DNA of 42,581 nucleotides from Ruminococcus sp. Its GTDB lineage: Bacteria; Bacillota; Clostridia; Lachnospirales; Lachnospiraceae. Under the pieces are notes generated by a model. That model did not search any database, was not told the DNA's origin, and worked only from the letters and a program-made list of their open reading frames with translations. A program made the translations under genes and the position numbers. Shown in pieces: positions 23,429 to 40,167 of the stretch. Each line of letters begins with the position of its first letter. Within the stretch, counting starts at the first letter, position 1. The stretch covers positions 1 through 42,581 of the forward strand of contig JAMPIB010000031.1 in assembly GCA_023663085.1 (NCBI GenBank), given 5' to 3'.

Positions 23429-23461
23429 TGGTTAAAATGACAAATAAAAAGAAAAGTATCC

Positions 23462-23490
23462 TTGTTTTTTCGGCAATTTTGTGATATAGT
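23462..23490 (+). promoter_or_regulatory. Putative promoter of the glycan operon
   Basis: TTGTTT (23462-23467), a 17-base spacer, and TATAGT (23485-23490). It lies between the terminator at 23400 and the GH26 gene and is the only good candidate in the gap. Confidence 0.5.
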
Positions 23491-23538
23491 TATCTACAGT
23501 GAGAAAAACCGGAAATGGTTTGGGGAGATTGTGGATTA

Positions 23539-25107
23539 ATGAAAAAAGTCAGAAACAGCCTGTTACCGTTGGGTATTGCGTTTTCTGCGTTTCTGACCGC
23601 CTGCGGGAGCGGGACGGCGGGGAGTGATACGCAGACAACCGAGAGCGGACAGACGGCTGAAAGTGTGCAGACAGCAGAGAAAGAACAGAAAGAACCTGTC
23701 ATTATCGGAACATGGCAGGCGGAAGATGCAGCACTGGAAGGCAATGTCAAAGTAGAAAAAAACAAAAGCGGATATACAGGTGATGGTTATATAAGTGGTA
23801 TTCAAAATGATGATGATGGCTGCCTCTTTACGATTGAGATCACGGAAGGCGGTTTTTTTGACCTTAATTTTATCAGTGCCAGTGAGGGCGGGTATAAAGA
23901 AAATTTCATATCTGTAGATGGCGAGTCGGTGGGCAGCATTGTCACTGAGGATGCGGAGTTTGCGGATTCCTATATCAGACGGGTCTATCTGGAGGCGGGA
24001 ACTCATGAGATAGAAGTCGTCAAAAGCTGGGGCTGGATATGTCTCGACTGTCTGGTGGTCTCGGAATCGGAGCAGCTTGATCCGGCAATCTATGAGGTAA
24101 AGACGGCGCTTTGTAATAAGAATGCTTCTGAAGAGGCGCGGAGGTTATACAGTTATCTGTGCGATATCTATGGCGAGAAGATACTTTCGGGCCAGTACTG
24201 TGATACCGGCGGGAACGGTAAGGAATTTCAGGTCGTTAAGAAAGCGACGGGTAAGACGCCGGCGGTGCTGGGACTGGATTTTATAGAGTATACGCCGTCC
24301 CGTGTAGAAAACGGAAGTACAGGACATGCCACAGATCTGGCGCTTAATTTCTGGGAAAATGGCGGTATCGTTACTTTCTGCTGGCACTGGAACGCACCCT
24401 CCCCCTATCTGACCGGACAGTGGTACAGCGGGTTTTATACGGATTCGACGAACATTGATCTGGCAAAGATCATGAACGGGGAAGATAAAGAGGGATATGA
24501 TCTTCTGATGAAGGATATCGACGCCATAGCGGAGCAGCTTCTTATTCTGAAAGAAGCGCATGTGCCGATACTCTGGCGGCCGCTGCATGAAGCGAGCGGC
24601 GGATGGTTCTGGTGGGGCGCGAGCGGCCCGGAACCTTATATACAGTTATATAAACTGCTTTACGAGAGACTGACGAACGAGTACGGGCTGGATAATCTGA
24701 TCTGGGTCTGGAACGGACAGGATGCAGCGTGGTATCCGGGAGACGAATATGTGGATATCATCGGGGAAGATATTTACCCCGGAGAGAAAGTATATACTTC
24801 GCAGATCGACGCCTATTTAAACGCCGCGCAGAATTATGCGGGAGAGACGAAACTGGTGTATCTGACGGAGAACGGCTGTGTATTTGATCCCGAACTTGCC
24901 AAAAGGGATGGCGCGATGTGGGGGATGTGGTGTACCTGGCAGGGCGAATTTGTAGCCAGGGATACGGCTATTTTTACCTTGAGCGAGCAGTACACGGAAG
25001 AAGCGGCACTCATAAAGGCATATGAGGACGAAGACGTTCTTACTTTGGAAGACCTGCCGGATCTTGCGACTTATGAGATGCGGGAAGAGTTTAAGCAGGC
25101 GGATTAA
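23539..25107 (+). CDS. GH26 mannanase-like lipoprotein with N-terminal CBM
   Basis: 522 residues from ATG 23539. The lipoprotein signal peptide ends in FLTAC (C22). Residues ~55-180 are a beta-sandwich carbohydrate-binding module of CBM35 type (GTWQAEDAALEG, then GYTGDGYISG, and YLEAGTHEIEVVKSWGWICLD). Residues ~195-500 are a glycoside hydrolase family 26 domain with acid/base E351 in WRPLHEASGGWFWWG and nucleophile E444 in VYLTENG. GH26 enzymes mostly cleave beta-1,4-mannan, so an extracellular mannan endo-hydrolase tethered to the membrane is the best call. It is the first gene of the ten-gene operon. Confidence 0.93.
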   Translation: MKKVRNSLLPLGIAFSAFLTACGSGTAGSDTQTTESGQTAESVQTAEKEQKEPVIIGTWQAEDAALEGNVKVEKNKSGYTGDGYISGIQNDDDGCLFTIEITEGGFFDLNFISASEGGYKENFISVDGESVGSIVTEDAEFADSYIRRVYLEAGTHEIEVVKSWGWICLDCLVVSESEQLDPAIYEVKTALCNKNASEEARRLYSYLCDIYGEKILSGQYCDTGGNGKEFQVVKKATGKTPAVLGLDFIEYTPSRVENGSTGHATDLALNFWENGGIVTFCWHWNAPSPYLTGQWYSGFYTDSTNIDLAKIMNGEDKEGYDLLMKDIDAIAEQLLILKEAHVPILWRPLHEASGGWFWWGASGPEPYIQLYKLLYERLTNEYGLDNLIWVWNGQDAAWYPGDEYVDIIGEDIYPGEKVYTSQIDAYLNAAQNYAGETKLVYLTENGCVFDPELAKRDGAMWGMWCTWQGEFVARDTAIFTLSEQYTEEAALIKAYEDEDVLTLEDLPDLATYEMREEFKQAD

Positions 25108-25135
25108 AGATGAATTAAAGATGAATTAAAGATAG
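25103..25135 (+). repeat. Three tandem 11-bp units across the GH26 stop codon
   Basis: ATTAAAGATGA occurs at 25103 and 25114, and a variant ATTAAAGATAG at 25125. The first unit contains the TAA stop and each later unit carries another TAA, so slippage here would not change the protein. Confidence 0.8.
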
Positions 25136-25156
25136 ATATAAAGTGCAAACCGGGCA

Positions 25157-25170
25157 TCTTGCATGCAAGA
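25157..25170. promoter_or_regulatory. 14-bp perfect palindrome, candidate operator
   Basis: TCTTGCATGCAAGA is perfectly palindromic and lies 33 bases before the start of the giant binding-protein gene. It could bind a dimeric regulator or be an RNA hairpin. Confidence 0.35.
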
Positions 25171-25202
25171 GCTTAATCTAAGTTTAGGAAAGAGGTATGG
25201 GT

Positions 25203-28193
25203 ATGAGATGGAGGAAAAACGGTAAAAAAATCGTGGCGCTTACTGTTGTTATGGCGTTAGTCATGCTTCCGGGTGCGGAATTTGAAAGTCATGCACAGAC
25301 AGATATGGCAATGGATGACTTTGACGACATCATCAGTACTTACAATATTGATGATTCTATTCCTTCTTATAAGGAATACATGGCAGAATACGGAAGTATG
25401 AATCGTCCGGCCGGAGCGGTCGAAGTACCGGCAGGCGGTTATGTGCGCTACGAGGAAAGCGATGCGGCGGCGGTGCCCGAAGTGTATACCGATTATGAGG
25501 GTATGGCGGGCGAGAGCGTGCTGACGGGTGAAGATTCTCTGATCGAGTTCGAGGTGGATGTGCCGGAGAGCGGGCTGTATAATCTCTCCGTGGTATATTA
25601 TCCCGTAGAGGGTAAAAACTCGGATATCGAGAGAGGCGTTTTCATCGACGGCGCACTGCCTTACGGCGAATTATCCCGTCTGACGTTCCCGAGGATCTGG
25701 ACGAATTATGTGGAAAACACGCATCTGGATGATAACGGTGTAAGGGTCATGACCTGGGAGAAAGATAATCAGGGAAATGATGTAAAACCGCTTATCATGG
25801 AAGTGCCGGAGTGGCAGAGCAGATATTTATACGACAGCAACGGATATATTACCGAGCCGCTTTCCATTTATCTGGAGGCGGGAAACCACACGATCTCCAT
25901 GATCTCCTTAAAAGAGCCCATGTTAATTAATAAACTGGTGTTAAACAGCGAAGGCGTAATTGACTCCTATGCGCAGGTCAAGGCGGACTGGGATGCGGCG
26001 GGGGCCTCCGATACGCAGGGTAAGATGATTACCCTGGAGGGGGAATATGCGACCAGGACATCTTCCCAGATGTTATATCCGCAGCAGGATCAGTCCTCTC
26101 CTTCCGTTTCACCGTCCAGTTCCAAAGAACTTCTGAACAACTCCATCGGCGGAAATTCATGGCGTCTGGTAGGACAGTGGATCGAATGGGAATTTGATGT
26201 GGAAGAAGACGGTTATTACAATATATCTCTTTATGATAAACAGAATTTCAGCAGAGGCGTACACGTTTCCAGACGTATCACCATCGATGGGGAAGTGCCT
26301 TTTGAAGAAATGTCCGACTATGCGTTTGATTACGGCCAGAGCTGGCGGGAGGATGTTCTTTCTGATGAAAACAGCGAACCGTACCGTTTCTATCTGACGA
26401 GCGGGCATCATACGATACGTATGGAGGCGGTTCTTGGTGAGTTCTCCGAGATCGTAGGTCTGGTGGAAGAGTCGGTGCAGCAGCTTAACAGCATTTACCG
26501 GCAGGTCATCAAAGTAACGGGCGTAAGTCCCGATACATACCGTGATTATCAGATCGAGACTATCTTACCGGGACTGACGGCTGAACTGACGGCGGCCAGA
26601 GAGACTTTGAATGAGGCGCTGGTCTTACTGGAAGAAGTAGCCGGAGCCAACAGTGATAAGAAGACCGCGCTTTTGACGATGTTGGATCAGCTGGACGATC
26701 TGATTGCGGATAATGAGTATTTCGTGCGTACCATTACTTCTTATAAGATAAATGTCAGAGCGCTGGGAACATGGATCACGCAGGTTATCAGCCAGCCTCT
26801 GCAGGTTGACAGGATCAATATTTATTCGCCGGGCGAGAAGATCACTTATGAGAATACTTCGTTCTTCTCCCGCGCGGGCTATGAGATACAGAGATTGTAT
26901 TACTCTTTCGTAATTGACTATAACAATATCGGCAGCGTTTCGGAAGATGGCAGCGGAGATGCTATCACGCTCTGGATCGGAACCGGACGTGACCAGGCCA
27001 ATGTTATCAAAGCGCTGGTCGATGACAATTTCACAAGTAAAACAGGCATCGGCGTCAATGTGCAGTTAGTCGATATGTCTACTTTATTGAAAGCAACTCT
27101 GGTAGGGGAAGGCCCCGATGTGGCGATACAGGTGGCCAACACCAACGGTATTGCCGGAGCGGTCTTAAATACCGGTAACGATACGCCGGTCAACTACGGT
27201 ATCCGTAATGCGGTACTGGATTTGAGCCAGTTCCCTGACGCGCAGGAGGTAATGGCCAGATTCCCGGAGGCGGCTTCTTTGCAGTTTACCTTTGACGGTT
27301 CTGTATACGCGCTGCCGGAGACGATAACCTATCCGGTCATGTTCTACCGGAAGGATATTCTGGCGGAGATCGGACTGGAAGTGCCGGAGACCTGGGATGA
27401 TGTAAAAGTGGCGATGACGGTACTGGCCAAGAACCAGATGGAATTCGGTATGCTGCCGACAGAGCAGTTATTCGCATCCCTGCTGTATCAAAACGGCGGT
27501 TCCTATTATATAGAAGACGGAAAGGCTTCGGCGCTGGATTCGGATATCGCGGTAAGTACCTTTAAAGATTTCTGTGAATATTATACGGATTACAAACTCG
27601 ATAAAGAGACCAGTGTGGAAGAACGTTTCCGTACAGGCGAGTGTCCGATCATCATAGCGGATTATACGGATTATAATAACTTCGCCGTATCCGCACCGGA
27701 TATCGCGGGATTGTGGACTTTTACACAGATACCGGGAACCGTACAGGCGGATGGCAGCGTTGACCATTCGGTAGCGAGCACGGGACTGGCCAGTATGATA
27801 ATGGCCGATACGGATAATAAAGAAGCCAGCTGGGAGTTCTTAAAATGGTGGACAAGCGCCGAGACGCAGACGCAGTACGGACGGGAAATGGAAGGTCTTA
27901 TGGGTTCCGCGGCGAGAGTGCCCACCGCCAACTACGAAGCATTTTTAAATATGCCGTGGCCGGTTGATGACTTTGAAGCCCTGAAGGAATCAATGGAATG
28001 GGTACAGGGTATCCCGCAGGTACCCGGAGGATATTATTCCTGGCGTAATGTATACAATGCGTTCTACACGGTGGCAACGGAAACAGATACCGCGTTGCCC
28101 AGAGAAGAGTTAATGGATAAGGTTATTTATATCAATGCGGAAATCAATTATAAACGAGAAGAACTTGAGCTGGATGTGGACAGCGGAAAGTAG
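25203..28193 (+). CDS. Giant extracellular solute-binding protein with N-terminal carbohydrate-binding-like modules
   Basis: 996 residues from ATG 25203, set by AGAGGT six bases upstream; ATG 25197 is in frame but touches that site. There is a signal peptide without a lipobox (…LVMLPGAEFESHA). Residues ~45-250 and ~270-420 are two beta-sandwich, CBM-like segments (each with SGLYNLSV/DGYYNISL and AGNHTI/SGHHTI). A helical linker spans ~425-520. From residue 586 (DAITLWIGTGRDQ) to ~960 it is a family 1 sugar-binding protein of CUT1 importers. It is followed 12 bases later by two permeases. How it stays on the cell without a lipid anchor is unclear; an uncleaved signal anchor or glycan binding are options. 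Confidence 0.85.
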   Translation: MRWRKNGKKIVALTVVMALVMLPGAEFESHAQTDMAMDDFDDIISTYNIDDSIPSYKEYMAEYGSMNRPAGAVEVPAGGYVRYEESDAAAVPEVYTDYEGMAGESVLTGEDSLIEFEVDVPESGLYNLSVVYYPVEGKNSDIERGVFIDGALPYGELSRLTFPRIWTNYVENTHLDDNGVRVMTWEKDNQGNDVKPLIMEVPEWQSRYLYDSNGYITEPLSIYLEAGNHTISMISLKEPMLINKLVLNSEGVIDSYAQVKADWDAAGASDTQGKMITLEGEYATRTSSQMLYPQQDQSSPSVSPSSSKELLNNSIGGNSWRLVGQWIEWEFDVEEDGYYNISLYDKQNFSRGVHVSRRITIDGEVPFEEMSDYAFDYGQSWREDVLSDENSEPYRFYLTSGHHTIRMEAVLGEFSEIVGLVEESVQQLNSIYRQVIKVTGVSPDTYRDYQIETILPGLTAELTAARETLNEALVLLEEVAGANSDKKTALLTMLDQLDDLIADNEYFVRTITSYKINVRALGTWITQVISQPLQVDRINIYSPGEKITYENTSFFSRAGYEIQRLYYSFVIDYNNIGSVSEDGSGDAITLWIGTGRDQANVIKALVDDNFTSKTGIGVNVQLVDMSTLLKATLVGEGPDVAIQVANTNGIAGAVLNTGNDTPVNYGIRNAVLDLSQFPDAQEVMARFPEAASLQFTFDGSVYALPETITYPVMFYRKDILAEIGLEVPETWDDVKVAMTVLAKNQMEFGMLPTEQLFASLLYQNGGSYYIEDGKASALDSDIAVSTFKDFCEYYTDYKLDKETSVEERFRTGECPIIIADYTDYNNFAVSAPDIAGLWTFTQIPGTVQADGSVDHSVASTGLASMIMADTDNKEASWEFLKWWTSAETQTQYGREMEGLMGSAARVPTANYEAFLNMPWPVDDFEALKESMEWVQGIPQVPGGYYSWRNVYNAFYTVATETDTALPREELMDKVIYINAEINYKREELELDVDSGK

Positions 28194-28205
28194 AAGGAGG
28201 AAAAA

Positions 28206-29165
28206 ATGGCAGAAAACGGGAATCAATCTGACGTAAAAGTGTCGCAGGAGGCGCTCGATATCGCCAAAAAGCAGGCGACGCTATGGTATCAGATCAAAAG
28301 AAACAAAGCTTCATATATGATGCTGGCACCTTATTTTATCTTGTTTTTCTTCTTCACGGTACTTCCGGTAGTCATGAGTGTGGGCTTTAGTTTTACTTAT
28401 TATAATATGCTGGAAATGCCGGAGTTTATCGGCTGGAAGAATTACATAAAACTGTTTTTGGAAGACGATATCTTCTTAAAAGCATTAAAAAATACCCTGA
28501 TCCTGGCCGTAGTGACCGGGCCGGTCAGTTATTTCTTATGTCTGCTCTTTGCATGGATCATCAATGAATTCAAAGGGTGGCTGAGAGCGTTTCTGACACT
28601 GGTCTTTTACGCGCCCAGTATCTGTGGTAATGCCTATGTCGTATGGAATCTGATCTTATCCGGCGACAGATATGGTTATCTGAACGGTATTTTGTTAAAA
28701 CTCGGCATATTGGACGAGGCGGTCATCTGGATGAAGACGGAGAAATATGTCCTGCCTTTTCTGATCGTCGTACAGTTATGGCTGAGTCTGGGAACCGGTT
28801 TCCTGTCCTTTATCGCCGGTTTACAGACGGTAGATAAGTCGCTGTATGAGGCGGCGGCGCTCGATGGCGTCAAGAACCGCTGGCAGGAACTCTGGTATGT
28901 GACCCTTCCTTCCATGAAACCGCAGCTGATGTTCGGTGCGGTCATGCAGATCACGCAGGCGTTCGCTATTGCGGATGTTTCCATACAGCTGGCCGGCAAT
29001 CCTTCGGTCAACTATTCGGGAGCAACAGTCGTAACGCACCTTCTGGACTACGGTACGGTACGTTTTGAAATGGGTTACGCCTCGGCGATCGCCACGGTAC
29101 TGTTCCTGTTAATGGTAGGTAGCAACCTGCTTGTACAGAGATTATTAAGGAGGGTTGGTGAATAA
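28206..29165 (+). CDS. CUT1 carbohydrate ABC transporter permease (MalF-like)
   Basis: 319 residues with six main hydrophobic helices. It belongs to the binding-protein-dependent transport inner-membrane family. The EAA loop that docks the ATPase starts at E215 (EAAALDGVKNRWQELWYVTLP). The N-terminus AYPY-like (MMLAPYFILFFFFTVLPVVM) is typical of MalF/UgpA-type subunits. AAGGAGG precedes ATG. Its TAA overlaps the ATG of the next permease by one base, indicating translational coupling. Confidence 0.95.
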   Translation: MAENGNQSDVKVSQEALDIAKKQATLWYQIKRNKASYMMLAPYFILFFFFTVLPVVMSVGFSFTYYNMLEMPEFIGWKNYIKLFLEDDIFLKALKNTLILAVVTGPVSYFLCLLFAWIINEFKGWLRAFLTLVFYAPSICGNAYVVWNLILSGDRYGYLNGILLKLGILDEAVIWMKTEKYVLPFLIVVQLWLSLGTGFLSFIAGLQTVDKSLYEAAALDGVKNRWQELWYVTLPSMKPQLMFGAVMQITQAFAIADVSIQLAGNPSVNYSGATVVTHLLDYGTVRFEMGYASAIATVLFLLMVGSNLLVQRLLRRVGE

Positions 29166-30067
29166 TGAGCAGACAAAAAGATTATTTGAAACCTTATAAA
29201 AAACGCCGTTTCTTCAAGCCTAAAGAGAAGAAACTGAACCGCTCCATGGCGGGTAATACGCTGTTATTCGTGGTCATGGCGATCTGCGGCGTGGCGATGA
29301 TACTGCCGCTTGTCATGGTCATCAATAACTGTTTGAAACCGCTTGATGAACTGTATCAATTCCCGCCGAAGATCTTTGTAAGAAATCCGACGTTTGAAAA
29401 CTTCTCGGATCTGTTTACGATGATGAGCGATTCCTGGGTTCCTTTTTCTAGGTATATATTGAACACAGTCATTATCACCGGCGGCGGCATGGTGGGGCAT
29501 GTTATCATAGCGTCCATGGCGGCATATCCGCTGGCAAAGCATAACTTCCCCGGCAAGAAGATACTGTTCCAGATGGTAGTCCTTTCCATGATGTTCCACT
29601 GGACGGTTACCCAGACGCCGCAGTACATGATGATTTCCTGGCTGCATATCAATAACAGTTACTGGGCCCTTATTTTACCGGCATGTTCCTTCGGTATGGG
29701 ACTTTATCTGATGAAACAGTTCATGGAGCAGCTTCCGGATTCCTTAATGGAATCGGCGAGACTGGACGGAGCGAACGAATGGCAGATTTTCTGGAAAATA
29801 GTCATGCCGAACGTAAAACCTGCCTGGCTGACGCTGGCAATCTTCCAGTTCCAGCAGATGTGGGCCAATACGGGAAGTACATTCTTACGGGACGAGGAAC
29901 TGAAACCTCTGCAATATTCCCTGCAGCAGATCGCGGCCGGCGGTACGGCCAGAGCGGGCGCGGCGGCGGCGGTAACGTTTATCATCGCGGCAGTACCGAT
30001 CACATTCTTCCTGATATGTCAGAGAAATGTCTTAGAGACGATGACATCATCCGGTATGAAAGATTAA
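29165..30067 (+). CDS. CUT1 carbohydrate ABC transporter permease (MalG-like)
   Basis: 300 residues with six predicted helices. The EAA loop begins at E196 (ESARLDGANEWQIFWKIVMP). It partners with the preceding permease for the giant binding protein. The C-terminus (CQRNVLETMTSSGMKD) is in the position of the MalG tail. One-base overlap with the upstream gene; the NHL gene follows after 15 bases. Confidence 0.95.
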   Translation: MSRQKDYLKPYKKRRFFKPKEKKLNRSMAGNTLLFVVMAICGVAMILPLVMVINNCLKPLDELYQFPPKIFVRNPTFENFSDLFTMMSDSWVPFSRYILNTVIITGGGMVGHVIIASMAAYPLAKHNFPGKKILFQMVVLSMMFHWTVTQTPQYMMISWLHINNSYWALILPACSFGMGLYLMKQFMEQLPDSLMESARLDGANEWQIFWKIVMPNVKPAWLTLAIFQFQQMWANTGSTFLRDEELKPLQYSLQQIAAGGTARAGAAAAVTFIIAAVPITFFLICQRNVLETMTSSGMKD

Positions 30068-30082
30068 GGGGAGGGAACGGAG

Positions 30083-31570
30083 ATGAAAAGATTCATTCAA
30101 CTACGAAAGATCATGTTCCTCTGCCTTGCGGTATGCGTACTTGTTCTTGCGACAGGGGAAAATGTACAGGCGTCCGAACTTCCATACGATACCTATAATT
30201 ATGATTATCGTGAATATATTCATTTCACGCCGGCGGCCTATATTCCGGCAGGGTCGGTAAAAGGCACGGATCTGACATGGAACGGCGAGCCTCTTGGCGG
30301 GTTTGTATCGCCGCAGGATTTCTGTCAGGCGGACGACGGGACGATCTATATTGCCGATACGGGCAACAACCGTATCGTTGCACTGGATAAGGATATGAAA
30401 AATGTAGTGAACGTCATCACTACTTTTGATAACGGGGGCACGGAAGATACATTTTCACAGCCTTACGGTATCTGCGTCTCTGAAAAAGGGCAGATCTACG
30501 TGGCTGATTCCCAGCACTACAGAGTGGTCGTTTTAAACAGCGACGGCAGTCTGGTCAAGATCGTAGACAATCCGCAGTCGGAGAGTCTGGAGGATGGTTA
30601 TGTATTCGTACCTTTGAAAGTGGCGGTAGACTATGCGGACAGAATCTATGTCATTGCGCAGAACATGTTTGAAGGTATCATGGTATTTGAAAATAACGGC
30701 GCTTTTTCCAGTTTCTTCGGGACGATTGAAGTAGAGATCAGTTTGTGGGAGAAATTCTGGAAACGTCTGGCAACCAAGGAAGAACGTTCCAAACAGGTGT
30801 TATTTATTCCTACCGAGTTCACGGGTATCGACATTGACCCGGAAGGCTTCGTTTATTCTTCCAATATTGATGCAACGGGCGTACAGGGCGTCAGAAGACT
30901 GAACCCCAGAGGCGAAGACGTCATCAAGAAGGGCGAGAACGAGAACGTAGGCGGCGACCTCTGGGTCGATGGCAATACGGAATATGCCGGCGCCTCCCAG
31001 CTTACGGATGTCGTGTACAGACAAAACGGTGTTTATTCCTGTCTGGATCGTAAGAGAGGACGTATCTTTACCTACGATCATGAAGGCAATCTCTTATATA
31101 TATTCGGCGGTCTGGGTACACAGGAAGGAACTTTCTCCATGCCGGTGGCTATCGAGGATATCGGCGGCAGACTGGCGGTACTGGATGCAACGAGATGTGC
31201 GGTCATATGCTTTGAAGAGACGGAGTATGGCAGACTGATCAATGAAGCGGTATCGCTGCGTTACGACGGGGACGAGGCACAGGCCGTAGCACTCTGGGAG
31301 AGAGTACTGGAACTGGATGAAAACAACGAACTGGCCAATACGGGTATCGGCAAAGCCTATCTGACGGCAGGCGATTATGTACAGGCCATGAAATATCTGG
31401 AATTGGGTATGAACCGAGATTATTATTCTGTCGCTTACAGGCGTTATCGTAACGGTATGCTGACAGAAAACGCAAGTTATTTTTTGACCGGGATACTGGT
31501 ACTTATTGCAGCCTGGCTCATTATCAGGAATATCAGAAAGAAAAAGAAAGGGGGAGCGGTGAATGAGTAA
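30083..31570 (+). CDS. Membrane-anchored NHL-repeat/TPR protein
   Basis: 495 residues. The signal peptide covers residues 1-28. NHL beta-propeller repeats follow, with clear units such as DDGTIYIADTGNNRIVALD and KGQIYVADSQHYRVVVLN, running to about residue 370. Residues ~380-460 are TPR-like helices (AQAVALWERVLELDENN, then AYLTAGDYVQAMKYLELGM). One C-terminal transmembrane helix (YFLTGILVLIAAWLIIRNI) with a basic KKKKGG tail stops transfer, so the propeller is extracellular. A protein- or glycan-docking scaffold is inferred. GGGAGG precedes ATG. It overlaps the YIP1 gene by 8 bases. Confidence 0.85.
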   Translation: MKRFIQLRKIMFLCLAVCVLVLATGENVQASELPYDTYNYDYREYIHFTPAAYIPAGSVKGTDLTWNGEPLGGFVSPQDFCQADDGTIYIADTGNNRIVALDKDMKNVVNVITTFDNGGTEDTFSQPYGICVSEKGQIYVADSQHYRVVVLNSDGSLVKIVDNPQSESLEDGYVFVPLKVAVDYADRIYVIAQNMFEGIMVFENNGAFSSFFGTIEVEISLWEKFWKRLATKEERSKQVLFIPTEFTGIDIDPEGFVYSSNIDATGVQGVRRLNPRGEDVIKKGENENVGGDLWVDGNTEYAGASQLTDVVYRQNGVYSCLDRKRGRIFTYDHEGNLLYIFGGLGTQEGTFSMPVAIEDIGGRLAVLDATRCAVICFEETEYGRLINEAVSLRYDGDEAQAVALWERVLELDENNELANTGIGKAYLTAGDYVQAMKYLELGMNRDYYSVAYRRYRNGMLTENASYFLTGILVLIAAWLIIRNIRKKKKGGAVNE

Positions 31571-32195: not shown

Positions 32196-32210
32196 GAGGC
32201 GGACGAAAGC

Positions 32211-34571
32211 ATGAAATCATCGAAAAAAGAAAAAACCAAGCTTCCTATGAGCCTGACGAAAAAAATCGTACTTTGTATTTTGGGGATAGCAGTAATAGCA
32301 GCTGTTATTTATCTGCTTTATTATTTTATCCATTATGTATCGTACAACAAATACAGGGATTATCTTTCTTCTTATGAGTACGAGCAGGGTACACAGTATA
32401 CGCCCATTGCAGAGGCAAGTCCCGATGTGGCAGGCATGGAACTGGTATGTGAGAATGAGTTTTTGAAACTCTATACGGATACAAAGATGGCGAGCATAGC
32501 CATTTATGATAAACGGGATGGCTCCATTACGTATTCCAATCCGCCGGATGCGGATAACGACAGTATAGCGAATGCCAGCAATATGAATTACTTAAAATCA
32601 CAGTTCGTCCTCGGTTACTATAACTCGGATGTAACGGCCGGCGCTATGGATTCTTACAGCCAGTCGGTGGCCAAAGGACAGTTTCAGGTAGAAGGCATTG
32701 CGAACGGACTGCGTTATATCTACCGTATCGGCGAACTGGTGAGCAGTAACGGAAGTGAGGGTATCTCCTTCGAGATTCCCATAGAATATCGCTTAAACGG
32801 CGATGCGCTGGATGTATCCATTCCGGTATCCGGTATCAAAGAATACGGAAACGCTTCTGTATACCGTATCCAGCTTCTTTCCTATCTGGGAGCGGCGGGC
32901 AATACGGAGAACGGTTATCTGGTAGTACCGAATGCTTCGGGATCTTTGATCTACTTTAATAACGGTAAGACCAGCGAGGCTTCTTATGCGCAGTATATCT
33001 ACGATATCGACCCGTTAGCGGCCAATTATACGACGACGGAGAATATCGAGAGCGCGAGACTGCCGTTATATGGTATCTGCAGGGAAGACAGGAGCATCCT
33101 TGTGACAGTGGAAGACGGTGCGAGCACCACATCCATTACGGCTGGCGTTTCGGGCGTCTATAACGATTATAATTACGCCTACCCGACGGTGATCCTGCGC
33201 AATACGGATAACCTGCGTATGTTCGGTAATACCACACAGGATATCTTCGTTTTGGAGCCGGATGCGTATGATATCAATTTCCAGGTAAAATATACGTTCT
33301 TAACGGCGGAAGATAAAGGGTATGCAGGACTGGCCAATTATTACAGGAACCGTCTGATAGCGGAGAATGTACTGACACCTTCGGGAGAGGGCGGCGATAT
33401 TCCTTTTTACTATGATGTGATCACAGGCGTTAAGGAAACATCGCATATGCTCGGCGTACAGTATCTGCACACGTTCGCGATGACCACGTTCGACGAGGCC
33501 GGACAGATCTCCGAAGATCTGGCGGCAAACGGTATCAACAGTCAGGTCATGAACTTACAGGGGTGGTTCAACGGCGGTTATTATCATAACGCGCCCCATA
33601 ATATAAGAGTTCTCGGCAAGCTGGGCGGGAAGTCCGATCTGGAGAAGCTGCAGGAGACGGTGGCGGCCAATAACGGCAGAATGTATGTGGATGTGGCGTT
33701 CCAGGAAGTAACTTTTGCGGATAACGGATTCAGTTTTAATAGTGAAAGTTCCCGTTATTATGGCGCGGGTTATGTAGCGGCTTTCGGTCAGGTCAATCCG
33801 ACCACGCTGCGTAACACTTCGGGATTAGGGTATGCGGAGACAAGATATGATCTGCTCTCTCCGAAGTATCTGCCCAGATATGTCGGAAAATTTGCCGATA
33901 AGATAGAGGGTATTGATGTATATGGTATTTCCCTGCGGGATCTGGGAAATGAACTGCATTCCGATAAAAGGCGTACCAATATCATCAACCGTGAAGAGGC
34001 GCTGGACGTCGTACTCGCACAGCTTGATGCGCTGGCGGATACGGGCAAGCAGATCATGACTAACTGCGGTAATGCCTACAGTTTCGCCTACAGTACGGAT
34101 ATCATCAATGTACCGGTTGCGGATAATGATTTCCCGATCGTGGACGAAAGCATACCGCTCTATGAAATGATAATCCATGGAAGTATACCGTATTCGACCA
34201 GTTTACTGAATTTCCAGGATCAGGAAGACATGACGGGTCTGGTACTGCAGGCCATCGAGGCCGGAGCGGCGCCGCATTATGTGTTCACCTGGGATGAATC
34301 GAGCCAGATGAAGGATACGGGACTCAACAGATATTATGCAACGACATATGAGACCTGGAAAAACGAGGCAATAACCATTTATACACAGGTCAACGAGGCG
34401 TTGAAATATGTTTCGGGCGCTATCATGAGCGATCATCAGATACTGGATAGCGGCGTCAGAAAAGCAACTTATGACAATGGTGTCACTATTTATATCAACT
34501 ATGATGATGAAGCAAAACAGGCGGATGGCATAGAGATTCCGGCGATGTCATACAGATTGGAGGGGATTTAA
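32211..34571 (+). CDS. Membrane-anchored DUF5696 protein, possible glycoside-hydrolase-like fold
   Basis: 786 residues. The N-terminal transmembrane anchor is at about residues 17-45 (IVLCILGIAVIAAVIYLLYY) after a Lys-rich start. Residues ~60-390 look beta-rich (for example YRIQLLSYLGAAG, SARLPLYGIC, FQVKYTFLTAEDKGYAGLANYYR). Residues ~395-720 alternate helices and strands in a TIM-barrel-like way (LAANGINSQVMNLQGWFNGG, GRMYVDVAFQEVTF, IEGIDVYGISLRDLGNELHS, KQIMTNCGNAYSF). The DUF5696 assignment is from memory. A glycosidase-like role is inferred, with E/D candidates in NELHSD and TWDESS. RBS AGGAGG. The next gene starts at the base after its stop. Confidence 0.75.
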   Translation: MKSSKKEKTKLPMSLTKKIVLCILGIAVIAAVIYLLYYFIHYVSYNKYRDYLSSYEYEQGTQYTPIAEASPDVAGMELVCENEFLKLYTDTKMASIAIYDKRDGSITYSNPPDADNDSIANASNMNYLKSQFVLGYYNSDVTAGAMDSYSQSVAKGQFQVEGIANGLRYIYRIGELVSSNGSEGISFEIPIEYRLNGDALDVSIPVSGIKEYGNASVYRIQLLSYLGAAGNTENGYLVVPNASGSLIYFNNGKTSEASYAQYIYDIDPLAANYTTTENIESARLPLYGICREDRSILVTVEDGASTTSITAGVSGVYNDYNYAYPTVILRNTDNLRMFGNTTQDIFVLEPDAYDINFQVKYTFLTAEDKGYAGLANYYRNRLIAENVLTPSGEGGDIPFYYDVITGVKETSHMLGVQYLHTFAMTTFDEAGQISEDLAANGINSQVMNLQGWFNGGYYHNAPHNIRVLGKLGGKSDLEKLQETVAANNGRMYVDVAFQEVTFADNGFSFNSESSRYYGAGYVAAFGQVNPTTLRNTSGLGYAETRYDLLSPKYLPRYVGKFADKIEGIDVYGISLRDLGNELHSDKRRTNIINREEALDVVLAQLDALADTGKQIMTNCGNAYSFAYSTDIINVPVADNDFPIVDESIPLYEMIIHGSIPYSTSLLNFQDQEDMTGLVLQAIEAGAAPHYVFTWDESSQMKDTGLNRYYATTYETWKNEAITIYTQVNEALKYVSGAIMSDHQILDSGVRKATYDNGVTIYINYDDEAKQADGIEIPAMSYRLEGI

Positions 34572-35501
34572 ATGAATAAAAAGAAAAAGAAAAAATTAAC
34601 TCTTCTCCAGAAGCGCAGTATGACAGGCTATCTGTTCATTCTGCCGTGGGTGGTAGGTTTCATACTCTTTTATGTAAGGTCGCTCATCTTAACGGGCCAG
34701 TTTGCTTTTTCCAATCTGACCATTGACGCTATCAACGGCGGATATAAACTGGATCCGGTAGGATTTGAGAATTTCAATTATGCGTTCAGGGTGCATGGTA
34801 CTTTTAAACAGGTATTGACGAGTTCGGTGCTGAATATGATAATCGACGTACCGCTCATCATCTTTTTCAGTCTGTTTATGGCGATGCTCCTAAATAAAAA
34901 GTTCCCCGGAAGAACGATTGTGAGAGCGATCTTCTTCCTGCCGGTCATCTTAAATTCCAGCGCCATTACGGCGGCGATGGAGATGTGTACACAGATGATG
35001 CAGGGCGGACTTTCCACGCAGGCGGCGGAAGTGACCGCAACGGTCGGCAATACGATGGCGCTGGATATCGACTATCTGGTAGATATGTTCATGAGTCTGG
35101 GACTTCCGGCGGTCGTGCTGGATTATATCGTGGCGGCCGTGGCGCGTATCAACGATATCATTTCGGCCTCCGGTGTGCAGATCATTATTTTCATCGCGGC
35201 CCTGCAGGCAATCCCCGGTTCCATGTACGAGGTAGCCAAGATGGAAGGCGCGACCGGATACGAGACTTTCTGGAAAGTAACGTTTCCTATGGTAATGCCG
35301 CATATCATCACCAATGTGGTCTATACCATTGTCGATAGTTTTACGGAGAGCGAAGTCGTGGAACTGGCCTATAATACAGCGTTCGATCAGTTCAATTATG
35401 GACTCAGTTCCGTGTTCAGTCTGGTCAGTACGGTCATCACCTGTATCATACTGGTTCTGATATGCGGAGCAATACAGAAGCGGACGTTCTATTATAACTA
35501 G
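34572..35501 (+). CDS. CUT1 carbohydrate ABC transporter permease (second importer, MalF-like)
   Basis: 309 residues. A basic N-terminus (NKKKKKKLTLLQKRSMTGYL) is followed by six predicted helices. The EAA loop starts at E220 (EVAKMEGATGYETFWKVTFP). A ~50-residue hydrophilic/amphipathic insertion (about 135-185, with MCTQMMQGGLSTQAAEVTA) lies between mid helices. It begins exactly after the DUF5696 stop codon with no intergenic base. Not closely similar to the first MalF-like subunit. Confidence 0.93.
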   Translation: MNKKKKKKLTLLQKRSMTGYLFILPWVVGFILFYVRSLILTGQFAFSNLTIDAINGGYKLDPVGFENFNYAFRVHGTFKQVLTSSVLNMIIDVPLIIFFSLFMAMLLNKKFPGRTIVRAIFFLPVILNSSAITAAMEMCTQMMQGGLSTQAAEVTATVGNTMALDIDYLVDMFMSLGLPAVVLDYIVAAVARINDIISASGVQIIIFIAALQAIPGSMYEVAKMEGATGYETFWKVTFPMVMPHIITNVVYTIVDSFTESEVVELAYNTAFDQFNYGLSSVFSLVSTVITCIILVLICGAIQKRTFYYN

Positions 35502-35518
35502 GGAAGGGGGAGAAAAAA

Positions 35519-36508
35519 ATGCAGAAAGATGTTGTGGCAAAGAATTATTTTTCAAAGATAAATACCGTATTTCAAGACCCTGACCAGACGAAGAGTCTCC
35601 TCAATAATATTAAGAATTTTGCGCTGGCGTTATTAAAGGCCGCGATCCTGATAGGGGTAGGATATGTTATTTTATCTCCGATCATAGGTATGGTGGTCAA
35701 CTCCTTTTCCTCCAATAAGGACGCTTATAACCCGATGGTCTTCGTACTGCCGCAGTTTCCTACGCTGGAGAGATATAAGCTGGCGATAGAGAGGCTTGAT
35801 TATTTTAAGACGATAGGAAAAGACCTGCTGTATACGCTGACATTGACGGTATTGGAACTGGTAGTGTGTTCTATGGTAGGATATGGATTTGCCAGATTTG
35901 ATTTTCCGCTTAAGAAGCTGCTCTTTGGGTGTGTGGTCGTGATGATCGTTATTCCATCCCATGTGATCATGCTTCCTGTATATATGACGTTTAGAAACTT
36001 TGACCCGTTCGGTATCGTTACGGCGATCAGAGGGACGTCGGGACTCATGGGCACCGTCGCGCCGATGTATATCATGACGCTATTCGGCTGCGGAGTCAGG
36101 TCGGGACTATATATTTATATTTTTAATCAGTTTTTCCGCGGACTGCCGAAAGAAATTGAAGAGGCAGCTCTGGTGGATGGGGCAGGCGTATGGTATACTT
36201 ATTTCCGTATCATGTTAGTGAACGCCATGCCCGCTGTCATCACGGTAACGGTATTCTCTATCGTATGGCAGTTTAATGATACTTTTTTTGCAAAGCTATT
36301 TCTGATAAGCGAAGATGTGGTCATCAGTAAGAAGATATCCAGTTTGCAGTCAACGATCGCCAATATGGATAAGATTCTGGATGTCACCATTCAGGAGTTA
36401 TATCTGGATGCGGGCATCGTGCTGGTCATCGTACCCATCATCATTATTTACTGCGTACTTCAGAAATACTTTATAGAAGGTGTGGAGAGAAGCGGTATCG
36501 TAGGATAA
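35519..36508 (+). CDS. CUT1 carbohydrate ABC transporter permease (second importer, MalG-like)
   Basis: 329 residues, six predicted helices. The EAA loop begins at E215 (EAALVDGAGVWYTYFRIMLV). The C-terminal QKYFIEGVERSGIVG is the typical MalG-type end. GGGGGAG lies about 7 bases before ATG. It completes the second permease pair, whose binding protein is probably the lipoprotein encoded at 38520. Confidence 0.94.
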   Translation: MQKDVVAKNYFSKINTVFQDPDQTKSLLNNIKNFALALLKAAILIGVGYVILSPIIGMVVNSFSSNKDAYNPMVFVLPQFPTLERYKLAIERLDYFKTIGKDLLYTLTLTVLELVVCSMVGYGFARFDFPLKKLLFGCVVVMIVIPSHVIMLPVYMTFRNFDPFGIVTAIRGTSGLMGTVAPMYIMTLFGCGVRSGLYIYIFNQFFRGLPKEIEEAALVDGAGVWYTYFRIMLVNAMPAVITVTVFSIVWQFNDTFFAKLFLISEDVVISKKISSLQSTIANMDKILDVTIQELYLDAGIVLVIVPIIIIYCVLQKYFIEGVERSGIVG

Positions 36509-36564
36509 GCAGCCTTTCCACAGCATTTCTCAACTTTATAACATAAAAAGGAGGTATGAAAAAG

Positions 36565-38499
36565 TTGAAAATGAAAAAATTAACAGCCTGTCTTTTAGCA
36601 GGCGCAATGGTGTTTTCTCTGACCGCGTGCGGTGGTGAAACTGAAGCACCCGCTGCCGAAGAGCCGGATACGACTCAGGAAAGCGCAGAGGCGGAAGACA
36701 CGGAAAGTACCGAAGCAGAAAGCGAGAGTACGGAAGAAGAGGCAGCGGCTCCTGAAGCAGTAGAGGCCAGCGTTGACTTTGAAGATGGCAGCATGAGTTT
36801 CGTTGCGCCTTATCTTACGCCTACTAACGCAGCAGAGGTAGAACTTTCCGTAGTTGATTTTGCAGGCAGCAAGGCTCTGCAGGTGAAGAACTTAAACGGC
36901 AAAGTGCCTTTCGTGGCATTTGACGTAACAAGCCTTCTGGGTGCAGACGTTGCCAAAGTGGCATCTGTGGAAATGAGTCTGGGAATCTCTTATGATGACG
37001 GTTCTTTCAGCGCGGTTTCCGGCAGCGTACTGACATGGAGCGGTGAGGACAGACACGAAGTCGCTAATGACTGGAGTGTATATATGGAGACCGCTAACCC
37101 GAAGGTAGCATCCGTAAGCATCAAATCCGGCGATGAATTTGTAGCGGATGCAGGCAATATCATGATCCTTTCTCTGACATCCGATACCGGTCTGGATGCC
37201 GGCAAAGGCAATGCGACACTTTATATTGACAATCTCCGTTTCCTGGATGCCTCAGGCAATCTGCTCAGTGCAGACAGTTCCGTAGCTTTCGCGGCACCGC
37301 AGGGATTTGAGAACAGCGGCGCAGACAGAAGCAATCTGGCGTCCATCTCAGGTGCGGTAAACTTTGAAGGTTTTGAGAAATCCGCAGGCGGCTGGGCACA
37401 GGATGGACTGGATATGCCGCAGGAGATCATCGACGCACTGGTACCGGGCGCTGTTGTAGAAATTGAGTACACAAGTACGACAGGAAATATGTGGCTGGTA
37501 ATGCCTTCCGCAGATGCAGGCTGGATGAGAGTCGGCGTCGGCGATGCAGACGGCAGCGGTCAGCAGTATGCTTATACAAACAATTCCGGTACAACGGCAC
37601 AGGTTACTTACGAGCAGCTGGCAGCGGTATGCGGCGACGACGTAAGTACATGGGGCCCGACCATGCAGTGTGAATCCGATGGCGACTGGGAAGTATTCAG
37701 CGTGAAAGTAGGACAGGCAGCACCTTCCTATGCAGTTTCCGGTGCGGTAGAGTTTGCGGGATTTGAGAAATCCGCAGGCGGCTGGGCACAGGATGGACTG
37801 GATATGCCGCAGGAGATCATCGACGCACTGGTTCCCGGTTCGGTAGTAGAGATCACATACACCAGCACAACAGGAAATATGTGGCTGGTAATGCCTTCTG
37901 CAGAAGCAGGCTGGATGAGAGTCGGCGTAGGTGATGCAGACGGAAGTGGTCAGGGATATGCGGTATGTGATGGCACGAAATGTTATGTTCCTTATGAGAT
38001 GATCGCAGAATACTGCGGTGATGATGTAAGTACATGGGGTCCGACCATGCAGTGTGAATCCGACGGCGACTGGGAAGTTTATTCCGTAAAAGTCGGTAAA
38101 GCCGGAGAATTTAAGCCGCTGAATCATCTGGTAAAATTTGAAGGATTTGAAAAAGCAGCAGACGGCTGGGCACAGGATGGACTGGATATGCCGCAGGAAA
38201 TCATTGACGCGCTGGTACCGGGTTCTGTTGTAACAATTTCTTATACCAGTGAGACAGGCAATATGTGGCTTGTAATACCTTCCGCAGAAGCAGGCTGGAT
38301 GAGAGTCGGCGTCGGCGATGCGGATGGCAGCGGTCAGGGATACGCGGTATGCGATGGCAGTACCTGCCAGATCCCGTTTGAAATGATCGCAGAATATTGT
38401 GGTGATGATGTAAGCAAATGGGGCGCAACCATGCAGTGCGAATCCGATGGCGCATGGGAAGTATTTGGCGTATCCGTTGGTCAGGCACCCGTGGAATAA
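36565..38499 (+). CDS. Lipoprotein with three near-identical ~128-residue modules
   Basis: The lipoprotein signal peptide ends in SLTAC, followed by an acidic Glu/Ala/Thr linker. Counting from ATG 36556 (647 residues), one beta-sandwich-like domain covers ~70-235 (VDFEDGSMSF through ATLYIDNLRFLD). Three repeats then start at about V268, V398 and V526, each with GFEKSAGGWAQDGLDMPQEI, GNMWLVMPSA, GWMRVGVGDADGSGQ, and a MQCESDGDWEVFSV-type end. Repeats 1 and 2 share 71 identical bases. A carbohydrate-binding role is inferred. Start: GGAGGT abuts ATG 36556, so TTG 36565 (10 bases after GGAGG) or ATG 36571 fit better. Confidence 0.8.
   Translation: MKMKKLTACLLAGAMVFSLTACGGETEAPAAEEPDTTQESAEAEDTESTEAESESTEEEAAAPEAVEASVDFEDGSMSFVAPYLTPTNAAEVELSVVDFAGSKALQVKNLNGKVPFVAFDVTSLLGADVAKVASVEMSLGISYDDGSFSAVSGSVLTWSGEDRHEVANDWSVYMETANPKVASVSIKSGDEFVADAGNIMILSLTSDTGLDAGKGNATLYIDNLRFLDASGNLLSADSSVAFAAPQGFENSGADRSNLASISGAVNFEGFEKSAGGWAQDGLDMPQEIIDALVPGAVVEIEYTSTTGNMWLVMPSADAGWMRVGVGDADGSGQQYAYTNNSGTTAQVTYEQLAAVCGDDVSTWGPTMQCESDGDWEVFSVKVGQAAPSYAVSGAVEFAGFEKSAGGWAQDGLDMPQEIIDALVPGSVVEITYTSTTGNMWLVMPSAEAGWMRVGVGDADGSGQGYAVCDGTKCYVPYEMIAEYCGDDVSTWGPTMQCESDGDWEVYSVKVGKAGEFKPLNHLVKFEGFEKAADGWAQDGLDMPQEIIDALVPGSVVTISYTSETGNMWLVIPSAEAGWMRVGVGDADGSGQGYAVCDGSTCQIPFEMIAEYCGDDVSKWGATMQCESDGAWEVFGVSVGQAPVE
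37351..38486 (+). repeat. Three tandem ~390-bp coding repeats
   Basis: Units begin near 37357, 37747 and 38131. Bases 37372-37442 and 37762-37832 are identical (71 of 71), offset by 390. Third-unit divergence is mostly synonymous, which points to recent duplication or gene conversion. Confidence 0.9.
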
Positions 38500-38519
38500 G
38501 AACAGGAGGACATACAGAA

Positions 38520-40040
38520 ATGATGAATATGAAGAAATTTTTAGCGCTTGGTCTTGCGGCAGTTATGACAGTGTCTGTTACAGCCTGCGGCGGGAGCAGC
38601 GATAACAGCAGCACAAGTACCGGAGATACGGCGGCTGATACCAGTACGGCAAGCGTAGAAAACAGCGGGCCTTCGGTTATCAATATCGGAACATGGTGGA
38701 CAGAGCATACTTATTATGACAGCAATAATACGGATATCTCTGATAAGACGGACTGGGAAAGCTGCCAGGATAAGGATGGCGATGACGAAGATACACTGGC
38801 AACCAATGCTTTGAATCGTCAGATCCATCAGATGATGTTTGATAACAAATCCGTTATCGAAGAGAAATACGGTATCACATTTTACTTTAACAACCTGACT
38901 TATCCGGGTGTAAAAGAATCCGTTAATACCTCTATCATGGCGGGAAGTCCTGACTGTGATATCTATCTGGTAGAGCCGGCGGTAGGTATCCCGGCACAGA
39001 TGAACGGTCTGGCTATTGATTTAAAGACAGTCCTTCCGGCGGATGACGACCTGTTTACCGATCAGACGAACCTGTCCTATCTGGATCTGGGCGATGGCAA
39101 GGCATGTATCCTGATCAGAGCAGAGGCGCAGGCACAGGTTGCCGCTACTTATCCTCTGGCATTCAATGTACAGATGCTGGAAGACAATAATCTGGAAGAT
39201 CCGAGAGATCTCTGGGAACGCGGCGAGTGGACATGGGATAAGTTCAACGAGTACTGCCAGGTACTGACACAGGATAGTGACGGCGATGGACAGATTGACC
39301 AGTATGGTTACTGTGGTTTTGAGAACGAAACACTTTCCGAGCTGATGATGAGCAACGGTACCGGTATCGCCATGGGCGCTCAGGAAACCTTGTCCTCTTC
39401 TGCAATGGGTGAAGTTTTACAGCAGATGTCAGATATGTACAATGTATACAATGTATGCTATCCGTATGACTTTGACGGGGATCCTTCTAACAGTATGAGA
39501 AATCAGTATACACAGGGTAATATCGGTTTCTTCCCCTGCGCGGCATGGATCCAGTCCAGTAACGGCGATTATGACTGGGACGGCACACTGGGAACAACAC
39601 TTCCTTTTGACGTAGCATACGTTCGCTGGCCGGTAGGTCCTTCCGGCAACAAAGACACGAACCCCGGCAAGAATGCTCTCGGCGGTGAGTTCTATATTAT
39701 CGCAGCTGGCTGTAAAGATCCGGTACTGGCTTACAACGTACTTTACGATATGTGGAACTGGTACGACGGCGACACATCTATCCGTGATGATAGAAAAGCG
39801 CTTAACTGGTGGTATGCGGTAACGGCAAAAGAGGCAGAACTGCAGGATGCAAACTTCGATGTTATGTTCGACTGCGGCGCACATTCAGCAGTTGACTTAT
39901 GGCAGTCCTTAGGTCTTGATTATTCAACGGACAGCAAGAATGGTCTTCAGCAGATTATCGAAGGAACCATGACGCCCGCACAGTTCCAGGAAACATTCAA
40001 ACAGCAGGTACAGGATGGTCTGGATGCGTACTTTAACTAA
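38520..40040 (+). CDS. Extracellular solute-binding lipoprotein of a carbohydrate ABC importer
   Basis: 506 residues from ATG 38520, with AGGAGG 11 bases upstream; ATG 38523 is equally possible, and the longer open frame overlaps the previous gene without a ribosome-binding site. The lipobox is VSVTAC. The mature protein is a family 1 solute-binding protein (SGPSVINIGTWW at the start, EKYGITFYFNNLTYPGVKES, AYVRWPVGPSGNKDTNPGKN). Acidic runs such as DKDGDDED and DSDGDGQIDQYG may bind calcium. It is the last gene of the operon and is likely the receptor for the second permease pair. A terminator follows. Confidence 0.9.
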   Translation: MMNMKKFLALGLAAVMTVSVTACGGSSDNSSTSTGDTAADTSTASVENSGPSVINIGTWWTEHTYYDSNNTDISDKTDWESCQDKDGDDEDTLATNALNRQIHQMMFDNKSVIEEKYGITFYFNNLTYPGVKESVNTSIMAGSPDCDIYLVEPAVGIPAQMNGLAIDLKTVLPADDDLFTDQTNLSYLDLGDGKACILIRAEAQAQVAATYPLAFNVQMLEDNNLEDPRDLWERGEWTWDKFNEYCQVLTQDSDGDGQIDQYGYCGFENETLSELMMSNGTGIAMGAQETLSSSAMGEVLQQMSDMYNVYNVCYPYDFDGDPSNSMRNQYTQGNIGFFPCAAWIQSSNGDYDWDGTLGTTLPFDVAYVRWPVGPSGNKDTNPGKNALGGEFYIIAAGCKDPVLAYNVLYDMWNWYDGDTSIRDDRKALNWWYAVTAKEAELQDANFDVMFDCGAHSAVDLWQSLGLDYSTDSKNGLQQIIEGTMTPAQFQETFKQQVQDGLDAYFN

Positions 40041-40101
40041 GTAAGGGTATGTGGCGGAATTTGAATGGATAGATAGTTGCTGTAAGAGATTTTAAGGGAA
40101 G

Positions 40102-40147
40102 AAAAACTCTATGCGACCGAAGGAAATTTGGTTGCATGGAGTTTTTT
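40102..40147 (+). terminator. Terminator ending the glycan operon
   Basis: AAAAACTC-t-ATGC-g-ACC (40103-40117) pairs with GGT-t-GCAT-g-GAGTTTTT (40130-40147), with only the interior mismatches. A T-run follows. It is about 60 bases after the binding-protein stop. Confidence 0.85.
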
Positions 40148-40167
40148 GCTGTTAATTTCAGATTTTA

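Follow-up and report, generated by a model that had tools for sequence, protein, structure and literature searches.

The window analysed here is an entire contig (C24) of 42,581 bases from a draft Ruminococcus sp. genome (3.44 Mb, 90.7% complete), and at positions 23515-40040 it contains eleven contiguous genes, all on the + strand, between two terminator-like hairpins. This block is probably the beta-(gluco)mannan version of a polysaccharide-uptake chassis that is conserved in Bacillota and is proposed to include a docking complex at the membrane. Eight of the genes form a core with the same order in every usable locus of the window's family, and the enzymes that adjoin this core change from clade to clade. 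The initial annotation of the stretch counted ten genes, although its own list named eleven, and all the genes that it named were found, contiguous and in the stated direction. The role in glycan capture and import that it proposed is well supported; the docking role rests on inference. The features of the block are the following.

23400..23425, + strand: intrinsic-terminator-like hairpin 5' of the block (11-pair stem with 5 G-C, T-rich tail)
23515..25107, + strand: lipoprotein with a CBM35 (carbohydrate-binding module) and a GH26 (glycoside hydrolase) domain, predicted surface endo-beta-mannanase (Pfam GH26 246 bits, CBM35 61 bits)
25197..28193, + strand: SBPL, a solute-binding protein of 998 residues with CBM-like beta domains, coiled coil and solute-binding domain (Pfam, profile matches)
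28206..29165, + strand: P1, CUT1-type permease (Pfam PF00528)
29165..30067, + strand: P2, CUT1-type permease (Pfam PF00528)
30083..31570, + strand: NHL repeats and TPR, with an N-terminal signal helix and one C-terminal hydrophobic helix (Pfam, hydrophobicity)
31563..32195, + strand: YIP1-family membrane protein, six hydrophobic windows of which two overlap (Pfam Yip1, hydrophobicity)
32211..34571, + strand: DUF5696 protein, N-terminal hydrophobic anchor and GH129-like domain (Pfam DUF5696 628 bits)
34572..35501, + strand: P3, CUT1-type permease (Pfam PF00528)
35519..36508, + strand: P4, CUT1-type permease (Pfam PF00528)
36556..38499, + strand: lipoprotein with three CBM65 modules (PF18259, 237.8 bits against a cut-off of 25, in three stretches; lipobox LTAC by eye)
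38520..40040, + strand: SBP2, lipoprotein solute-binding protein (Pfam SBP_bac_1 26.2 bits, barely above the cut-off of 26)
40101..40147, + strand: intrinsic-terminator-like hairpin closing the block (20-pair stem)

A conserved eight-gene core

PF18952 (DUF5696) was searched in 397 genomes of the window's family, where 105 genomes were above the cut-off and 79 had a match of at least 400 bits. Of 123 further DUF5696 sites that reached 400 bits, 100 were fetched, and 84 of these were usable after 16 had been dropped for short flanks. The set of near relatives consisted of the best 80 of at least 571 DUF5696 relatives in genome_contigs, of which 48 were usable and 32 were dropped for the same reason. 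In a sample of the phylum 39 of 398 genomes were above the DUF5696 cut-off, two of them from the window's family, and the set from outside the family comprised 20 fetched neighbourhoods, 16 usable and four dropped, again for short flanks. With at least 571 stretches found in genome_contigs (two patterns) the module is not rare, and the closest named DUF5696 relatives among the matches listed were metagenome-assembled genomes of Lachnospiraceae (82% identity).

The order SBPL, two permeases, NHL/TPR, YIP1, DUF5696 and two permeases was found in all 84 usable family loci; in each, DUF5696 was preceded by SBPL, two or more permeases, NHL and YIP1 and followed by two or more permeases. YIP1 was a separate gene in 55 of these loci and fused to NHL in 29, and a second receptor was in reach in 78. 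The near relatives had the core in 48/48 cases and the full eleven-gene set in 44/48. Outside the family NHL-YIP1-DUF5696 followed by two permeases was present in 16/16 usable loci, with SBPL and its two permeases upstream in 10, downstream in three and out of reach in three. Because of these 16 loci we regard NHL, YIP1, DUF5696, P3 and P4 as the inseparable part and SBPL-P1-P2 as a second, usually joined block.

The initial annotation proposed a comparison of gene order for joint recurrence of all its genes and named routine absence of GH26 and the second receptor as evidence to the contrary. In our comparison the eight-gene core was kept and the eleven-gene set as such was not kept across the family: an upstream GH26 was absent from 66/84 and CBM65 from 60/84 of the family loci, where other hydrolases adjoin. 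GH26 is thus routinely missing across the family at large, whereas 44/48 loci of the window's own clade have it, and the second receptor, in reach in 78/84 family loci, is not routinely missing. Taken as a whole, the earlier interpretation is partly supported.

Between-locus distances were concordant for every pair among eight components, with Spearman coefficients of 0.79-0.95 (84 loci; 72 in the case of SBP2) against a maximum of 0.18 on permutation, and still gave 0.64-0.94 for pairs of modules within the same genome (24 pairs in 18 genomes; 19 pairs for SBP2), with the reservation that vertical inheritance (species history) by itself raises such correlations. These values suggest that the core components diverge together. 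An SBPL profile (A9, E <=1e-40) matched in 10/10 DUF5696-bearing genomes from other families, which served as positive control, and in 0/40 genomes in which DUF5696 had not matched. SBPL appears, in the genomes searched, to be exclusive to the DUF5696 module; two genomes (G458 and G436) contain SBPL although their modules L257, L258 and L262 have none in reach. A chance cluster of the eleven genes was rejected given the 84/84 and 48/48 cores, the concordant distances and the tie of SBPL to DUF5696.

Two plasmids also carry the module: on Butyrivibrio fibrisolvens D1 pNP243 (L002) it is accompanied by GH43 and by a two-component system, on a plasmid of Paenibacillus cellulosilyticus (L003) by an ATPase and by flavin-dependent oxidoreductases. 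The full eleven-gene set also occurs, with a DUF5696 identity of 56%, on a contig titled Anaerolineaceae MAG4 (L211), which reflects either mis-binning or transfer out of Bacillota. Two GenBank UNVERIFIED records named 'Bacteriophage sp.' (L273, 1-25960, and L274, 1-27526) contain the whole eight-gene core and look like bacterial DNA mislabelled as phage.

Enzymes around the core and the likely substrate

The best solved relatives of the GH26 protein were 3zm8, a GH26 endo-mannanase (E 1e-92), and 6hpf (E 3e-80); four of the five best are named mannanases and the fifth is named just GH26. Its candidate catalytic residues, Glu359 and Glu452, are matched by Glu in both structures, and two (6d2w, 6d2x) of the 33 PDB chains that it matched are named as glucosidase. 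Translation likely starts at the MKK codon near 23539, followed by a lipobox LTAC (by eye). No other GH26 was found in the draft genome.

On a DUF5696 tree (FastTree, 103 rows) the GH26 label required 4 changes versus 17.6 for shuffled labels, and the 19 rows with an upstream GH26, window included, fell in one set of 22 rows, the remaining three of which have CBM65. Upstream GH26 was always accompanied by CBM65 (18/18 in the family, 44/44 among near relatives). GH130 was in reach in 14/18 of the GH26 loci versus 4/66 of the others in the family sample (Fisher 2e-9), and three of these four belong to the same clade as the GH26 loci. Among near relatives GH130 was in reach in 32/48 loci, and a scan of 115 of their 168 flanking proteins (104 downstream, 11 upstream), a non-random choice made mostly by length, gave 38 GH130, 17 LacI, 14 DUF624, 13 GH5, 10 GDSL esterases and 7 epimerases; cellobiose-epimerase-like proteins are among these neighbours. 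The kinship of GH26 to named beta-mannanases and the GH130 in reach of most GH26 loci support the suggestion of the initial annotation that beta-mannan is the likely substrate.

Other enzymes were found in other clades. The nearest same-strand proteins of 59/84 loci were scanned (73/73 upstream, 96/130 downstream) and GH43 was the commonest neighbour (11/73 upstream, 14/96 downstream), beside GH51-type arabinofuranosidase, GH10, GH3, GH35, GH67 and GH106. As judged from the enzyme families, one chassis would be combined with exchangeable enzymes, for mannan in the window's clade and for arabinoxylan or pectin-type glycans elsewhere, and the window most likely contains the form of this general uptake chassis that serves beta-mannan.

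The protein that had been described as a triple-module lipoprotein is present, and its three modules are CBM65. It shares Pfam CBM65_1, in three stretches, with EcCel5A of Eubacterium cellulosolvens as described in the accessible part of PMC10992016, and differs from that enzyme in that no cellulase domain was found in it. A phmmer search at E 0.1 gave no PDB match for this lipoprotein.

A second, divergently oriented GH26-like open reading frame (ORF) of about 270-330 residues was observed upstream of the module in several near relatives, namely L155 (checked with Pfam), L136, L138, L147, L148 and L176. It is perhaps an intracellular partner.

Receptors, permeases and ATPase

Residues 269-406 of the SBPL profile resemble 5x7g, residues 440-505 resemble coiled-coil designs, and residues 570-880 resemble Lin1841 (5ysb, E 8e-33), the closest solved relative of the receptor domain, whose ligand we take to be a sophoro-oligosaccharide. 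SBPL differs from Lin1841 by about 560 extra N-terminal residues (CBM-like domains and coiled coil) and by the lack of a lipobox. A lipobox-like motif was found in 9/84 SBPL and 85/86 SBP2 in the family sample, in 7/49 and 48/51 among near relatives and in 2/13 and 5/13 outside the family. Because the motif is rare in SBPL, most SBPL are probably not lipoproteins and would be held by an N-terminal helix or by partners, or released. SBP2 matched 6rjy, an arabino-oligosaccharide-binding protein (E 2e-11).

An EAA-like motif was recognised by regular expression in 84/84 P1, 83/84 P2, 55/84 P3 and 55/84 P4. By alignment, the Glu and Gly of the EAA loop are kept in 83/84 and 82/84 P3 and in 81/84 and 84/84 P4, and degenerate permeases were ruled out for P3 and P4 on these grounds. 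Two permeases with EAA loops per importer and a solute-binding protein per pair, as in CUT1 importers, agree with the two receptor-permease sets of the initial annotation. The block contains no ATPase gene; CUT1 importers often have their MsmX/UgpC-type ATPase encoded apart. The best of 93 ATPase matches elsewhere in the genome was an MsmX/UgpC-like protein (C8:7299-8393) with 55% identity over its length to the ATPase that adjoins the Paenibacillus module.

The NHL/TPR, YIP1 and DUF5696 proteins

Hydrophobic segments suggest that the NHL/TPR and DUF5696 proteins lie outside the cell on membrane helices, with YIP1 in the membrane. A family-wide DUF5696 profile (A1) matched a solved 3,6-anhydro-D-galactosidase (E 7e-11) and GH129 chains (E 1e-8), and its matches to 5opq are pieces at the two ends and within the barrel. 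For comparison a profile (A4) was made of 17 GH129-like proteins from the window's family; it matched 5wzn at E 3e-300, and Pfam PF11308 was matched in just 7 of the 17 genomes behind it. Aligned by hhalign, A4 and DUF5696 shared 466 columns (probability 98.9; DUF5696 residues 229-773). DUF5696 is thus related in sequence, remotely, to the hydrolases of GH129, 3,6-anhydro-D-galactosidase and GH101 (5wzn, 5opq, 8rzg).

The catalytic pair of these enzymes is another matter. All 17 rows of A4 share the residues that correspond to the nucleophile and acid/base of GH129 (D435 and E478 in NagBb). In DUF5696, Asp577 was put at the nucleophile place by spacing. Among 183 DUF5696 proteins 132 have Asp577, 38 have a Glu at 618-620, where GH129 has its acid/base, and 11 have both; compared with the GH129/GH101 group the acid/base Glu is in the minority and the Asp is regular in some clades only. 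In the GH26 clade Asp577 is found in 100/102 sequences, Gln450, Asp494, Asp645 and Glu683 each in 102/102, Glu543 in 96/102 and a Glu at 618-620 in 10/102, and outside this clade Asp577 is found in 32/81, Gln450 in 10/81 and Glu683 in 76/81. Forty-one columns, counted without correction for relatedness, are fixed in the GH26 clade and variable outside it, 27 in the barrel and 14 in the similarly long N-terminal part. We read the barrel as a probable binding pocket that is tuned to the glycan of each clade and lacks the GH129 catalytic pair. DUF5696 would accordingly be a substrate-tuned surface scaffold, with an altered enzyme being less likely and an enzyme with another acid/base possible.

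Comparison with known mannan systems

The MULL/MULS loci of Roseburia intestinalis comprise, in the accessible part of their description, a surface GH26, a solute-binding protein with two permeases, a GH130 pair, an epimerase, LacI and esterases (PMC6385246). The block resembles them in its surface GH26 and in the solute-binding protein with two permeases, and the GH26, as predicted from its sequence, has both catalytic Glu. A GH130 pair and an epimerase are not in the block but on contig C16 of the same genome, which carries CE2, two GH130, an epimerase-family protein, two permeases and a solute-binding protein, a gene set much like MULL but without GH26 (PMC6385246). The organism thus appears to have three CUT1 importers linked to mannan. 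The Roseburia system relies on a single importer (RiMnBP/RiMPP1/RiMPP2), and its GH26 carries CBM27/CBM23, whereas the block has two importers, and the part of the description that was accessible names no NHL, YIP1, DUF5696, second importer or CBM65 protein (PMC6385246). Two mannan-binding proteins have been described for an ABC transporter of Bifidobacterium animalis (Ejby 2019, via PMC13278490). The block is like that transporter in having two binding proteins, in its case putative ones, for manno-oligosaccharides but, as far as the source goes, the Bifidobacterium system has a single transporter where the block has two permease pairs and a membrane module (PMC13278490).

In the open-licence literature of PubMed Central (PMC) we found no paper naming DUF5696 or PF18952 and no description of the module (searched as DUF5696/PF18952, YIP1 with solute-binding, and NHL combinations). 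The parts are of known kinds and their fixed combination is not described in that literature.

Proposed mechanism and alternative explanations

In the mechanism that we propose, the GH26/CBM35 mannanase and the triple-CBM65 lipoprotein would bind the polymer on the outside of the cell and cleave it there, and SBPL and SBP2 would capture the released oligosaccharides and hand them to the permease pairs P1/P2 and P3/P4, with the energy supplied to both by an MsmX-type ATPase whose gene lies outside the block. NHL/TPR, YIP1 and DUF5696 would form an outward-facing membrane-anchored complex tied to P3/P4, which most likely binds glycan via the GH129-like domain of DUF5696 and may dock receptors and hydrolases beside the permeases; a docking complex is proposed in view of the fusion of NHL to YIP1 in some loci and of the link with P3/P4. 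Inside the cell the GH130 phosphorylases and the epimerase of C16 would complete the breakdown. More tentatively, and with considerable doubt, NHL/TPR-YIP1-DUF5696 may be a dedicated Gram-positive docking machine: a pseudo-hydrolase tuned to its substrate would sit on a hub in the membrane and hold together two ABC importers, a receptor that bears CBMs but is no lipoprotein, and surface hydrolases that can be exchanged. This complex, re-used with a new set of enzymes per polysaccharide, would be a functional counterpart of the SusCD utilisome of Bacteroidota.

Several observations weigh against the proposal of a mannan version of the chassis with a docking complex, in addition to the effects of relatedness on the correlations and on the clade-fixed columns given above. 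The evidence for the docking role of NHL, YIP1 and DUF5696 consists of conservation, hydrophobicity and fusion, and in the hhalign alignment Asp577 does not fall opposite the nucleophile of GH129. The SBP2 profile found no second receptor in 6/84 family loci, SBPL-P-P is upstream in just 10/16 loci outside the family, and only 5/13 SBP2 there show the lipobox pattern, which also matches 18/84 DUF5696 proteins, so that false matches occur. Two more ATPases, which reach 46-51% over about 240 residues, are candidates too. With respect to mannan, the 22-row set that holds all GH26 rows has a support of 89 and is not starred in the FastTree tree, GH26 lies downstream of the core without CBM65 in L035, L254 and L259, L120 has GH130 without GH26 outside the GH26 clade, and the window's block lacks the GH130, LacI and DUF624 genes carried by many relatives. 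Contig C16 supplies a mannan-type importer in addition to the two of the block, and CBM65 is known, from the accessible part of PMC10992016, for xyloglucan and beta-glucan and not for mannan.

The alternative that deserves most attention is a catalytic role for DUF5696: tethered to the membrane, it would be an active glycosidase that represents a new family of the GH129/GH101 group, uses a different acid/base and removes side chains (alpha-galactosyl ones, perhaps, in the case of mannan) ahead of import. The 466-column homology to GH129, the retention of Asp577, Asp494, Glu683 and Glu543 in the GH26 clade and the concentration of 27 of the 41 clade-fixed columns in the barrel agree with such an enzyme, but the Glu at 618-620 is scarce, scarcer still together with Asp577, and Asp577 itself is found in fewer than half of the sequences outside the clade; we consider this alternative unlikely, if by no means negligible. 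It is improbable that the block merely combines two ordinary, independent CUT1 importers for mannan oligosaccharides, clustered by chance with unrelated membrane genes: all four permeases keep their EAA loops and SBPL-P-P is separable outside the family, which would suit this explanation, but not the invariant cores in family and near relatives, the lack of SBPL in all 40 genomes without DUF5696 or the concordant divergence.

The remaining two alternatives concern what the system recognises. Some GH26 enzymes are lichenases, and the substrate could be xyloglucan or mixed-linkage beta-glucan with GH26 acting on these, given that CBM65 accompanies every upstream GH26 and that two of the matched PDB chains are named glucosidase. 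The CBM65A/B of EcCel5A indeed prefer xyloglucan, according to the part of PMC10992016 available; the best named GH26 matches, which are mannanases, and the GH130 and cellobiose-epimerase-like neighbours make this substrate quite improbable. Finally, NHL-YIP1-DUF5696-P3-P4 might be mainly a sensor of surface glycan that signals via the permeases or the membrane and is not part of an importer. Contacts between proteins are commonly made by propeller, TPR and polytopic YIP1 domains, and a histidine kinase and response regulator adjoin the module in L002, but Pfam found no signalling domain in the window's core and the adjoining regulators differ between loci, and we hold a sensor to be very improbable.

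Limits of the block and other genes in the window

The gaps between the eleven genes are, in gene order, 89, 12, -1, 15, -8, 15, 0, 17, 47 and about 20 bases, the last on the assumption that the SBP2 lipoprotein starts near 38520 (its ORF opens at 38418). The two bounding hairpins have the longest stems among 18 terminator-like sites in 23000-40600 (mean of 13.1 in shuffles), the next longest having 9 pairs, and promoter-like sites were not commoner than in shuffles (25 versus 29.1). No shared promoter or operator was seen 5' of GH26 in six aligned upstream stretches, which aligned poorly, and no regulatory RNA was found in the block by Rfam at gathering thresholds. A Gram-positive polysaccharide utilization locus is defined by a degrading enzyme, a transporter and a linked regulator; Pfam found no regulator within 23515-40040 or in the scanned neighbours, and the block does not have this composition.

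Beyond the closing terminator, and outside the block, a RhuM-family protein (best PADLOC model PDC-S05, 552 bits) and then a Fic protein (SoFic, 113 bits) are encoded at 40233-42274, preceded by a promoter-like site at 40168; both are candidate defence genes. A Schlafen/AlbA_2 protein with a Fic-like C-terminal domain is encoded at 21169-22554, its ORF overlapping the preceding RNA-methyltransferase ORF by 47 bases. The only Rfam match of the window is an ordinary lysine riboswitch (4643-4816, 107 bits) upstream of the genes for DHDPS (4916-5800) and DapB (5872-6627).

Significance

The block has the look of a cell-surface apparatus by which bacteria of gut and rumen would degrade plant mannan and take it up, and it is built on conserved membrane proteins that have been little studied. 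The usual picture of polysaccharide uptake in Gram-positive bacteria of these habitats is a single lipoprotein receptor working with a single permease pair. The fixed eight-gene core, found inside and outside the family, sets two importers around three uncharacterised membrane proteins and swaps its enzymes. If the core is one complex, this would account for the way in which these bacteria avoid losing the sugars that they set free, it would give the DUF5696 family a role, and the clade of the core would be a marker from which the fibre used by a strain could be predicted.

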